NCBI GenBank assembly: GCA_017626045.1 | Contig: JAGAJP010000063.1 | Coordinates: 1-64,000, forward strand | Direction: 5' to 3' | DNA from: Muribaculaceae bacterium | GTDB taxonomy: Bacteria > Bacteroidota > Bacteroidia > Bacteroidales > Muribaculaceae | DNA: 64,000 nt | In this document: one piece after another, positions 58,547-62,891 of the stretch | Layout: every line of letters starts with the position of its first letter | How positions within the stretch are numbered: position 1 is the first letter of the stretch | Position numbers and translations under genes: made by a program | Notes under the pieces: generated by a model | What the model saw: the letters and a program-made list of their open reading frames with translations, nothing else | The model's database searches: none | What the model was told of the DNA's origin: nothing

Positions 58547-61408
58547 CTATTTCAGCATCACTTTCGACTTCGTGCCGTCGGCATGGACAGCCACGTATAT
58601 GCCGGGTGCGGACGGTTTTTCTATTCTTGTACCCTCAAGTGTATAGTATGCCACCACGGGCGCACCGGAAACGTCTTCCACGCCTTCCACTCCATTGGGG
58701 TCTGTTACCGTCACCAGGCACTCAGCCTTGAACTCTGGAGCAAGGGCGATGGTGGCGGTTATCACGGCGTTGCCGGGAGCCACACCAATAACGTCACCTC
58801 TTGTGCTCACGGTGGCTACGGACGGGTCTGAAGTGGACCACTCGATACCCATCTCGCTGCATTCAGCCGGAGCAATGCGGGCTATCAGATAGTCGGCGCC
58901 GTTTACATTAAGACCGAGAGCACTCTTGTCGAGCATCACCGACTCTATGCGGTATGGCACCACATTGTTGCCCGACATAGCGGAGCGATATTCCGACTCG
59001 GCATCGGCAGGCACATAGACAGTGGCAGTCCTCTGGATGGCATTCGAGCCTGCTGCGGGAGCTTCAGCTCCATGGAAATAAACCGTCGATAGCTGGTCGC
59101 AGCCATTGAAGGCACTTTCACCAAGAGAAGTAAGTCCGGCAGGAAACTCCACGCAATAGAGATTGCTGTTGTTGCTAAAGGCGTTTTTGCCGATACTGAG
59201 AGAAGACGCCGCGCGAGTCTGCGGACGAGGAGCGAACACTACCGTGTTGATACGGGAAGATTCAAAAAGAGATTCGGGTATAACCTCCACATTCTTTCCT
59301 ATCACCAGAGAGTCAAGAGCATTCTCGTAATGTAACGAGATCAACGGATACACATAGTCGTATTGAGGCACCCTCTTGAGATTCGGGATATCGAAAATAA
59401 CCTTGCGAAGGTCCGGCATTGACTCGCAAACCGGCAAGTACTCCGGAAGACTTTCAATCCCGGAATGCAGGTCCATCTCTATGACACCCGAAACATTATA
59501 CAACGCCCTATCGCCCAAATGCTTCATATTAGGCAGAGATAGTTTTGTGCCGAAAGGAAACTCCAGACCGGAAAGCGCCTCCTCTCCAAGACTGACGACC
59601 CTGTCGATGGATCCTTTCACCTTAGCCGGATTATCGCTATAAGCCCATATGGCTTTATTGCCGATTTCGAGAGGGACATCCGAATCCTCAAACTCCACAC
59701 GCGCCAGAGAACCTCCTATACTAAACAGTCCGTCCGGAATATTCTCCACACCGGCTCCAATAACAAGCTTCTCTATATTACACCCTGAAAACGGCACGTA
59801 TGAGCCTATATAGTCACCATAATCAAGTGTGCGGGAATCAAGACGCACGGTAGAAAGATACGGACAGCCCATAAATGCTGTTCCACCAATTTCCTCAAGT
59901 GAGGCGGGGAGTGTGACTGATGTTATTTTTGTATTGCCGAATGTGCTGTAAAACTCATTCTGACCACTGCTTTTAATCACTTTCAATCCCTCCGGCAATT
60001 TTAAAGAGGTAATGCCTGACATACAGAAAGCGTTGTCGCCGATATACTCGACTGTGGAGGGAATCTCGATGCTTGTCAGTTTCGGTGAACTGTAGAATAC
60101 ATTATCGCCGATGATGCGAAGACCATCGTTGAGTGTGGCGCTCTCAAGATTCTCGTAATAGCCACCAGCGGCATACAAGGACTCTACGGAAGAGGGGAGC
60201 GTAAAGCTACGCACCGATGACATGTCGAAGTTGGCGGCTATGGAAACGGTACCGTCGCGGAATGTAATATCAGTAGGCTTATTGACCGCCTTATAAGCCA
60301 CATTGCCGAGATAAACGACACCATCGACGGCTGTGGTGTTCAGGTTCCGGTCCCAAGGAGTGTCCTTGAAGGCTCTGTCGCCAATAAAGGAGACAGAGAC
60401 GGGAATCTCAACATCGGAGAGTGCCGTGCCCTCAAAGGCAGACGCACCGATACTCTCTGTCCCTTCCGGAAATATGAGTTCCGTCAGTTTTACCTTTTCC
60501 CTAAGACTCCAGTTTTCAAGATAGAATGCACGGTCGCCTATCTCACGCAGATTTGCAGACAGTTTCAGCTCGCTTATCGGGCAGTCCATAAAAGCCGCGG
60601 AAGAAATCTTTTCAACATTTGAGAGGTCGGCTGAAGAGAGGGCTGTTGCCTTGAACGCCTCATCGCCAATGGCGTTGACATTCTCAAGATTGATTGACGA
60701 GAGGGATTCCACTCGCCAGAAGGCGCGGTCACCGATAGCCACGGGATGCGCAGGCAGAGTGACTGATGTCAAAACGGTTCTGTAGAATGCGTTGGAACCT
60801 ATTTTCTTAAGGGCGGAGGGCATGTTGACGGAGGCAAGACCGAAACAGTCCTCGAAGCAGGATTCGCCTATTTCCTCGACATTGTCGGGGAGCACCGCCT
60901 CCTTGAGGCCCATGCTCTTGAAGCAGATGTAGTCAGCTATTCTGTTGTCTTTTGCCGGGAGAGTGACTTTTTCAAATTCAGTGTTTGCGAGCAGACCGGC
61001 GAGGTCGTCGCCATAAATGCTGTAGACAGCAACCGGCATACCGAGACCTCCGGTGGAGGTGGAGACTTCTTCTCTCTTGTTTTTCGAGTAATAGAACTTG
61101 GCATACGTTCCGCCTCCCGCCTCGGCGAAGATTGTCACCTTACGGTATGGTTCAGTCTCCGACTCCACCAGTTTAACATCGGTGATGTCGAGATGCTTCA
61201 CCTGCATGATCTTACCGGAGTTTCCGGTGAGATATTCCACGTCGGCGGCATTGAGCGTGCCGGAAAGGCGCAACGTGGAGATGTCTGCCTCTGTGTCGAT
61301 AAGCAGATCCTTGAATGAGCCCGGCTCGGACACATTCAGGTCGAATGCAAAGACCTCGGCGAGCGACACAACCATCGCCGATATCAGCAAAAACAATCTA
61401 ATTTTCAT
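58547..61408 (-). CDS. BspA-type leucine-rich repeat surface protein
   Basis: The 953-residue protein has a signal peptide (ending SLAEVFA near residue 21), then many LRR_5-type repeats such as GLKEAVLPDNVEEIGESCFED, NAFYRTVLTSVTLPAHPVAIG and SIEIPSTVEYIGDNAF (roughly residues 120-790). A Big_2-like Ig domain (about 830-905) and a C-terminal YTLEGTRIEKPSAPGIYV-type segment with DGTKSKVMLK close the protein, reminiscent of type IX secretion tails in Bacteroidales. BspA-type proteins mediate adhesion to host or bacteria. Its promoter (61439-61470) is nearly consensus. Confidence 0.88.
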   Translation of the reverse strand: MKIRLFLLISAMVVSLAEVFAFDLNVSEPGSFKDLLIDTEADISTLRLSGTLNAADVEYLTGNSGKIMQVKHLDITDVKLVESETEPYRKVTIFAEAGGGTYAKFYYSKNKREEVSTSTGGLGMPVAVYSIYGDDLAGLLANTEFEKVTLPAKDNRIADYICFKSMGLKEAVLPDNVEEIGESCFEDCFGLASVNMPSALKKIGSNAFYRTVLTSVTLPAHPVAIGDRAFWRVESLSSINLENVNAIGDEAFKATALSSADLSNVEKISSAAFMDCPISELKLSANLREIGDRAFYLENWSLREKVKLTELIFPEGTESIGASAFEGTALSDVEIPVSVSFIGDRAFKDTPWDRNLNTTAVDGVVYLGNVAYKAVNKPTDITFRDGTVSIAANFDMSSVRSFTLPSSVESLYAAGGYYENLESATLNDGLRIIGDNVFYSSPKLTSIEIPSTVEYIGDNAFCMSGITSLKLPEGLKVIKSSGQNEFYSTFGNTKITSVTLPASLEEIGGTAFMGCPYLSTVRLDSRTLDYGDYIGSYVPFSGCNIEKLVIGAGVENIPDGLFSIGGSLARVEFEDSDVPLEIGNKAIWAYSDNPAKVKGSIDRVVSLGEEALSGLEFPFGTKLSLPNMKHLGDRALYNVSGVIEMDLHSGIESLPEYLPVCESMPDLRKVIFDIPNLKRVPQYDYVYPLISLHYENALDSLVIGKNVEVIPESLFESSRINTVVFAPRPQTRAASSLSIGKNAFSNNSNLYCVEFPAGLTSLGESAFNGCDQLSTVYFHGAEAPAAGSNAIQRTATVYVPADAESEYRSAMSGNNVVPYRIESVMLDKSALGLNVNGADYLIARIAPAECSEMGIEWSTSDPSVATVSTRGDVIGVAPGNAVITATIALAPEFKAECLVTVTDPNGVEGVEDVSGAPVVAYYTLEGTRIEKPSAPGIYVAVHADGTKSKVMLK

Positions 61409-61470: not shown

Positions 61471-61539
61471 TACGGAATTCCGTGATTTTTCAGGAAATTT
61501 TAAGCCGACCGCGCAGTGCCCGGCATTGCAAGCGGGCGT

Positions 61540-61571
61540 AAAAAATCCGGCATCAAACGAATGATGCCGGA
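61540..61571 (-). terminator. rpsO terminator
   Basis: On the minus strand TCCGGCATCA pairs perfectly with TGATGCCGGA (arms 61562-61571 and 61546-61555) around a six-base loop, followed by six T (61545-61540). Confidence 0.88.
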
Positions 61572-61600
61572 CTAAATCTACCGATACAGGCAGTATGACA

Positions 61601-61920: not shown

Positions 61921-61966
61921 AAAAGGATGTTTCCGAGGTCTCTCTCCTCCTGTCGGAAACCCCTTT
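61921..61966 (-). ncRNA. Structured 5' leader of rpsO
   Basis: In the leader, GTTTCCGA and TCGGAAAC (61929-61936 and 61953-61960) pair perfectly over eight bases around a 16-base loop; an outer AAAGG/CCTTT stem (61922-61926 and 61962-61966) extends it after a small internal loop. Leaders of rpsO in other phyla bind S15 and block translation. A similar role here is inferred. Confidence 0.55.
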
Positions 61967-62189: not shown

Positions 62190-62891
62190 ATGAAGAAACC
62201 GAAATTAGTGATAAGCTCCGGAGCGGGGATAAGCGCCGAGTCCGGCATAAAGACCTTCCGCGACGCCGGAGGCCTCTGGGAAAACTATCCCGTTATGGAT
62301 GTGGCGTCCGCCGACGGTTTCCGCAGAAACCCGAAACTCGTGCATGACTTCTACAACGCGCGCCGCCACGACCTGCTGAAGGCGCAGCCCAACGCCGCAC
62401 ACCGCGCACTCGTAGACCTCGAAAAGCATTTCGATGTCTACATCATAACCCAGAACGTTGACGACCTGCACGAAAGAGCCGGCTCGAAAAACGTGCTTCA
62501 CCTGCATGGCGAACTCATGAAGATACGCTCCATAATCCATCCCGAATATGTAGAGACACTCGACCCGGACCACCTTGACACCACCCCGGAGACACGCGGG
62601 GCAAACGGAGACCCCATGCGTCCGCATATAGTATTCTTCCAGGAGGCGGTCCCAAATATCGAGAAAGCCATGCAGCTGGTGAGCGAAGCCGACATCTTCT
62701 GCATCATCGGCACGAGCCTCGCCGTGTATCCCGCCGCCGGCCTCCTCTACAGCGTGCGCCCCGGCACTCCTATATATTATATAGACCCGCACCCCGCCGC
62801 CACCCCCGACATCCCTAACCTCACGGTAATCCCGCAGACAGCCTCCGAAGGAATGAAAACCCTCACCTCCCTCCTCTGCCATGATACCTGA
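62190..62891 (+). CDS. Sirtuin (NAD-dependent protein deacylase), no zinc cysteines
   Basis: The 233-residue protein is a Sir2-family enzyme: SSGAGISAESGIKTFRDAGGL (NAD loop), TQNVDDLHERAG, the catalytic histidine in HLHGE (H106) and GTSLAVYPAAGLL. The YxxR motif YNAR (Y55, R58) is the signature of class III members that prefer succinyl or malonyl groups, such as CobB and SIRT5. The region where four zinc-binding cysteines normally lie (KIRSIIHPEYVETL) has none, so no structural zinc is expected. It overlaps the next gene by 11 bases. Confidence 0.9.
   Translation: MKKPKLVISSGAGISAESGIKTFRDAGGLWENYPVMDVASADGFRRNPKLVHDFYNARRHDLLKAQPNAAHRALVDLEKHFDVYIITQNVDDLHERAGSKNVLHLHGELMKIRSIIHPEYVETLDPDHLDTTPETRGANGDPMRPHIVFFQEAVPNIEKAMQLVSEADIFCIIGTSLAVYPAAGLLYSVRPGTPIYYIDPHPAATPDIPNLTVIPQTASEGMKTLTSLLCHDT

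Follow-up and report, generated by a model that had tools for sequence, protein, structure and literature searches.

A candidate S15-responsive leader with a predicted loop-to-start pseudoknot upstream of rpsO in one genus of Muribaculaceae

The leader of rpsO, the gene for ribosomal protein S15, carries in one genus of the family Muribaculaceae a predicted conserved fold with covariation between paired positions, a complementarity between its apical loop and the stretch just before the start codon, and an association with rpsO, as read from sequence. The genome concerned, from which the window (i.e., the whole stretch of 64,000 nucleotides that was analysed) is taken, probably belongs to the genus Candidatus Amulumruptor. 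The element is likely, in our judgement, to be a cis-acting S15-responsive translational operator. With somewhat less assurance, though still on the favourable side, it may represent a new S15-responsive RNA class gained in one genus, where an apical loop would close a non-Shine-Dalgarno start through an independently evolved pseudoknot, possibly with changes at the RNA-binding face of S15. The S15 leaders are a model case for unrelated RNAs answering the same protein. The present element looks recent, detected as it is in close to 90 species-level genomes, all from a single genus, and in none of the sampled relatives, so that its gain, its loss and its change alongside S15 should be traceable among close relatives. 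If the proposed operator is real, it would be a leader controlling initiation without a Shine-Dalgarno sequence.

The rpsO locus and the predicted fold of its leader

At the level of the locus, the following features are considered, all on the minus strand:

62012-62009 and 61989-61982, minus strand: promoter-like pair, TTTG and TAATTTTG, 19 nt apart (from sequence)
61981-61874, minus strand: whole element, leader and ATG (covariance model R1, 78.1 bits, E 1e-10)
61876-61601, minus strand: rpsO, ribosomal protein uS15, 91 aa (open reading frame, 47-96% identity with relatives)
61573-61544, minus strand: terminator-like hairpin followed by a T run, directly 3' of rpsO (12-bp stem when 61535-61600 is folded)

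The terminator-like hairpin right behind rpsO, which was not among the sites listed by a pattern scan for terminators, suggests that the gene is transcribed alone, the next open reading frame on its strand beginning at 61408. As such, S15 would be the only ribosomal protein that the leader regulates and, hence, its natural ligand. That long reading frame (58547-61408, same strand) presumably encodes a leucine-rich-repeat surface protein, and the divergent neighbour of rpsO (62190-62891) what we take to be a Sir2-type deacylase. We further take the pair TTTG / TAATTTTG to fit the Bacteroides-type promoter consensus; a scan for sigma-70 promoters upstream of rpsO gave no match. From the position of this pair, the leader is about 100-105 nt long, in line with the original prediction of a roughly 100-base rpsO leader. 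With a permissive pattern, the promoter-like box is found in 93 of the 94 rpsO loci of the genus, being misplaced in at least four of them.

Within the leader, four stems are distinguished:

61977-61972 with 61916-61911, minus strand: stem P1, GTCTTT with AAAGGC (from the fold)
61967-61961 with 61927-61921, minus strand: stem P2, GAAAGGG with TCCTTTT (from the fold)
61960-61953 with 61936-61929, minus strand: stem P3, GTTTCCGA with TCGGAAAC (from sequence and fold)
61947-61946 with 61938-61937, minus strand: P4, GG with CC (by analogy with relatives)

The perfect eight-base stem from which the analysis started, namely P3, is present exactly as described, and so is the outer stem around it, where AAAGG (61966-61962) pairs with CCTTT (61926-61922) on the minus strand. 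The hairpin is thus real, but the original prediction had seen only part of it, missing P1 and, more tellingly, a predicted GAGAG/CTCTC pseudoknot. In the minimum-energy fold, P1 is followed by a small internal loop and P2, beyond which lie P3 and the short P4; the fold is better than expected by chance, its energy of -28.2 kcal/mol (z -2.34) being equalled by 3 of 200 dinucleotide shuffles. P4 is assigned on the basis of relatives where it is longer, e.g., L099 and L102; the minimum-energy fold places its GG at 61950-61949 instead.

As P3 forms a perfect inverted repeat, it could also be a DNA-level operator for a DNA-binding protein, or a chance occurrence. This reading is hardly credible: the sequence of P3 varies widely among relatives while stems recur at the same place, and the strand next to the start codon changes together with the loop, the two lying more than 50 nt apart in the window.

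Conservation of pairing across the genus

The relatives are nearly all metagenome assemblies, in which a protein search recovered rpsO from 113 of 119 genomes of the family and 96 of 111 of the genus. The loci analysed comprise 94 from the genus and 83 from other genera of the family, the latter drawn from 106 other-genus genomes with an rpsO match. The genus matches in genomes G121 and G218, whose genes are cut by contig ends, stand outside the 94, although by eye the leader of G121 carries the element. Sixty-three genus leaders (alignment A1) served as the seed of the covariance model R1, in which P1 and P2 are the only modelled pairs; the 31 loci omitted from this seed were long, truncated, misplaced or aberrant, one was without a promoter match and one was a near-duplicate. 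At E ≤0.015, the model recovers 87 of the 94 genus loci, including 24 of the 31 outside the seed. The seven below the threshold (L002, L115, L117, L118, L121, L133 and L146), which were excluded from pair counts, indicate that loss or alteration of the element does occur; in three of these (L115, L117 and L118), P1/P2-like pairing seems by eye to be kept without GAGAG/CTCTC.

Among the 87 aligned leaders, paired cells make up 99.8% in P1, with double changes at two of six pairs, 93.3% in P2, with double changes at four of five pairs, and 94.0% in the loop-to-start helix, with a double change at one of five pairs; for the three jointly, the figure is 96.0%. P1 and P2 are favoured here, the alignment having been fitted to them, and the loop helix was unmodelled, its register not being followed by the columns. 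Covariation in related rpsO leaders, the check named in the original prediction, came out positive for P1, P2 and the pseudoknot, since the covariation score of 0.226 exceeds both that of shuffles (0.154, with 0 of 500 as high) and that of slid partners (at most 0.119). Likewise, two-sided changes affect 58 cells, where shuffles give 9.4 and none of 500 comes as high; seven pairs show a double change against 3.8, a count of seven being reached by 7 of 500 shuffles.

Folding statistics set the genus apart from the rest of the family. Averaged over 89 of the 94 genus leaders (those of 80-160 nt), the folding z is -1.92, with 43 of the 89 below -2, versus -0.23 in the 83 leaders of other family genera, with four below -2. 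Folded as single sequences, 84 of the 87 leaders form P1, 52 form P2 in the aligned register and 51 form both. Where both are folded, 43 leaders form a single hairpin and eight form two hairpins, so that a conserved three-way junction is not general among these 51.

Four segments of the leader, i.e., CTTTT, AAAAG, CTTTT and AAAAG, are compatible either with long-range pairing or with two local hairpins. In 85 leaders, the mean number of pairs out of five is 4.99 and 4.69 for the long-range helices, and 4.56 and 4.64 for the local hairpins; in some 20 leaders, P2 as defined is without its fifth pair and the local hairpin of the third and fourth segments keeps five. The means are close, and the clearest deviants (L147, L153, L170 and L174), in which the long-range pairing is better kept, are the only leaders that clearly favour the long-range fold; on these, the fold with two local hairpins was set aside. 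The same repeats bear on transcription attenuation, in which the leader would compete with a terminator hairpin, as the two local hairpins could form and CTTTTT follows shortly after P3 in the window. We regard attenuation as very improbable given the four deviant leaders and a pattern scan that listed no terminator-like site on the leader strand, although this silence weighs little, the scan having also missed the hairpin behind rpsO.

The predicted contact between the apical loop and the region of the start codon completes the architecture:

61944-61940, minus strand: 5' strand of the pseudoknot, GAGAG, in the loop closed by P4 (pseudoknot swap test)
61887-61883, minus strand: 3' strand of the pseudoknot, CTCTC, at -11 to -7 before ATG (pairing kept through two-sided changes)

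An overlapping register of GAGAG, at 61946-61942, is also possible. Most genus leaders combine an apical loop resembling GAGAG with a complementary stretch, resembling CTCTC, immediately ahead of ATG. With the part inside P2 as donor and positions -18 to -4 as tail, at least five contiguous Watson-Crick pairs are found in 83 of the 87 leaders, and the tail strand ends between -8 and -4 in 80 of these 83. When tails are swapped among species, a mean of 65.8 of 87 leaders still pair and 0 of 20,000 swaps reach 83; shuffled tails give 13.1. Among the 20 leaders whose tail is without CTCTC, 17 pair with their own loop against a swap mean of 7.7 (0 of 20,000). Extending the tail to -1 brings the count to 85 of 87, the leaders that fail with the tail to -4 being L114, L151, L154 and L176. 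The variant loop/tail pairs include GAGATT/AATCTC (L004), GGAGAT/ATCTCC (L131), CTGAG/CTCAG (L136-L138), GTGAAGT/ACTTCAC (L149), GAGTG/CACTC (L172) and TGTGAGA/TCTCACA (L140). Not all cases are double substitutions, since in some leaders (e.g., L123, L126 and L140) GAGAG is retained in the loop and the register of the pairing shifts. Because species are not independent events, co-change of loop and tail was also counted under control of the rpsO tree, which gives three independent pairs on supported branches and nine on all branches; the supported pairs average 2.6 in the expected direction and 0.0 in the opposite one, with a median p of 0.25, too few for significance.

Some leaders depart from the common layout. 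Four (L125, L129, L132 and L142) have extra sequence, partly hairpins, between the element and the start codon, and each retains a loop-complementary stretch beside ATG, as though the insertions had left the pairing intact. In two others (L151 and L154), the S15 gene has an unusual start (ATGTTC), and P1-like pairing is kept with GAGAG/CTCTC absent; L151 may pair through another 5-bp helix.

Distribution of the element and candidate ligand

In the window's genome, where 150 of 716 first-look candidates were scored, one significant R1 site was reported; the next match (23.4 bits, E 1.8) lies antisense at the same place. Across 397 genomes of the family, R1 matches occur in 69, of which 67 are in the genus (84 genus genomes), and all 67 end at the rpsO start codon when compared by eye. 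Among some 313 other family genomes, none has a match at rpsO and two have weak matches elsewhere, both taken as chance. The first (G702, another genus, E 0.0013) precedes a different gene and has an AT-rich, ATG-adjacent tail as its visible likeness, the 135-aa reading frame behind it being presumably DUF4332-like; the second (G065, E 0.0059) precedes a 136-aa reading frame on a contig other than that of its rpsO. At E ≤0.001, the search of 295 genomes of the order returned the window's own match only. Since just the best 9-13 first-look candidates per genome were scored, under strict filters, weak copies could be missed in these searches. Applied to the 83 rpsO loci outside the genus, the model gave 29 matches of low significance (E from 0.0076 to 1); none was counted, the five best aligning to the AT-rich sequence around the start, with the stems absent or disrupted.

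The length of the leader follows the same boundary, the distance from promoter-like box to ATG having a median of 107 nt in the genus against 51 nt in other family genera, where 6 of 83 reach at least 80 nt. Among the best-scoring 29 rpsO loci of the order (from 116 genomes with a match), leaders are 25-52 nt long in 25. Considering the match-poor relatives and the short rpsO leaders outside the genus, the element is genus-level, most simply through a gain in the lineage of the genus. The “Bacteroidales type” put forward in the original prediction is therefore too wide, as in the other genera and families sampled rpsO leaders are mostly short and R1 fails to recover the element. An rpsO tree with 177 rows accounts for the genus label in two changes and for the presence of the element in six, which points to some losses or threshold misses. 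At two loci from other Bacteroidales families, the rpsO leader is longer and has a favourable predicted fold (L294, 110 nt, -21.5 kcal/mol; L306, 114 nt, -36.0 kcal/mol); neither is recognisably of the same type, and both are possibly separate leaders.

Given the association with the gene, S15 is most likely the ligand. Regulation by a factor other than S15, be it another ribosomal protein, temperature, a small RNA or a protein acting at the start, would draw on the weakness of the 5-bp pseudoknot, which could be heat-labile, and on the identification of the ligand from the gene alone. It appears improbable in view of the confinement of all 67 genus matches to rpsO, the absence of a second significant site among the candidates scored in the window's genome and the lack of any known RNA class reaching its cut-off in the leader.

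The E. coli leader offers a reference for recognition, its U-G/C-G motif being read by S15 residues His42, Asp49 and Ser52, as described in PMC8470358. The counterparts in the window's S15 are His42, Asp49 and Thr52, which are shared by 92 of 94 members of the genus and by 82-83 of 83 other family members and thus do not discriminate between them. In P1 of the window, a U-G lies next to a C-G, but 20 of 87 leaders are without a wobble in the first four P1 pairs, and a universal rRNA-like U-G/C-G site for S15 was not found in these pairs across the 87 leaders. The internal-loop TGACG, which we had likened to the 16S rRNA near the S15 site, was discarded, as it occurs in 14 of the 87 only. At S15 residues 17, 27, 37, 62 and 65, the genus departs from other members of the family (e.g., K62Q and R65S). 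These differences could reflect co-evolution with the leader; residues 62 and 65 were nevertheless dismissed as tracking the element within the genus, since six of the seven loci without it have the typical Q and S.

The missing universal rRNA-like site would also fit a structured leader serving a constant purpose, such as mRNA stability, a fixed low translation or a standby site, with no S15 feedback. The pseudoknot could by itself lower initiation without a ligand, and the evidence consists of structure and gene association. We hold such a constant role to be rather unlikely, because the pairing is kept through changes on the start side, as would be expected of a switch more than of a passive stem, and because rpsO is feedback-regulated in several phyla.

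For the S15-responsive operator, the following course may be proposed. The rpsO leader would fold as a long interrupted hairpin, with P1, the internal loop, P2 and P3/P4. S15 in excess of free 16S rRNA would bind it and stabilise the pairing of the loop GAGAG with CTCTC at -11 to -7, thereby structuring a stretch that Bacteroidia ribosomes need open, so that initiation at the rpsO AUG would fall. With S15 engaged by rRNA, the pseudoknot, which is weak at 5 bp, would open and translation proceed. Both the favouring of the pseudoknot by S15 and repression as the outcome are inferred. According to PMC9976891, Bacteroidia ribosomes generally do without Shine-Dalgarno use, and initiation relies on reduced structure together with adenines at -3, -6, -12 and -13; a pseudoknot at -11 to -7 would then interfere.

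Relation to known S15 leaders

In several bacteria, S15 acts as a repressor of its own mRNA via unrelated leaders, pseudoknots being described in those of E. coli and mycobacteria (PMC10931766, PMC8470358), and S15-responsive RNAs are reported to arise readily in selection experiments (PMC5100602). As regards the S15 leaders in general, the genus element is, in its predicted features, a conserved structured rpsO leader with covariation, which is placed at rpsO and not elsewhere among the best first-look candidates scored per genome. The proposal of a distinct class of autoregulatory leader is strengthened by the covariation and by the fact that no Rfam cut-off is reached, but it has to be narrowed to the genus.

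In 4 kb around rpsO, a search with Rfam 15 gave just two matches, both at the level of chance (E 4.7 and 9.6) and both outside the leader. The only ribosomal leader reported at rpsO among 20 relatives is the E. coli type RF00114, in three of them and below its cut-off of 39.5 (35.2, 29.1 and 20.7 bits); membership in this family was rejected, as the matches lie largely over the coding start and break the pairs of the second helix. For Flavobacteria, i.e., the same phylum and the same gene, an S15 leader candidate is rated “?” by Eckert and Weinberg 2020 (PMC7247131), whose table gives none for Bacteroidales. The genus element is set apart from it by this listing, and no Flavobacteria S15 family came up in the Rfam scans of the window and the 20 relatives. 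In the main text of Slinger 2014 (PMC4137082), no word starting with “Bacteroid” occurs, nor does “S15” in the main text of the human-microbiome survey PMC8040213, and the literature search returned no recognised description of an rpsO leader in Muribaculaceae.

The leaders of Geobacillus/B. stearothermophilus and Thermus are likewise rpsO leaders and are reported to repress translation on binding S15, through a three-way junction resembling the 16S rRNA site (PMC10931766, PMC4684408), whereas in the genus element two hairpins appear in 8 of the 51 folds with both P1 and P2. The mycobacterial and actinobacterial leader likewise has a pseudoknot upstream of the start codon, as predicted in PMC4137082 and, in M. 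smegmatis, needed for repression by S15 (PMC8470358); it differs in phylum and helices and in having a Shine-Dalgarno sequence and the U-G/C-G motif. With the E. coli leader (RF00114), the genus element shares its place at rpsO and a pseudoknot engaging the initiation region, which S15 stabilises there and would be expected to stabilise here. By its sequence complementarity, the putative loop-to-start pseudoknot is of another make, with different helices, an apical loop reaching to -11 to -7 and a phylum without Shine-Dalgarno pairing. By analogy, the S15 operator would most likely work like the pseudoknots of E. coli and mycobacteria.
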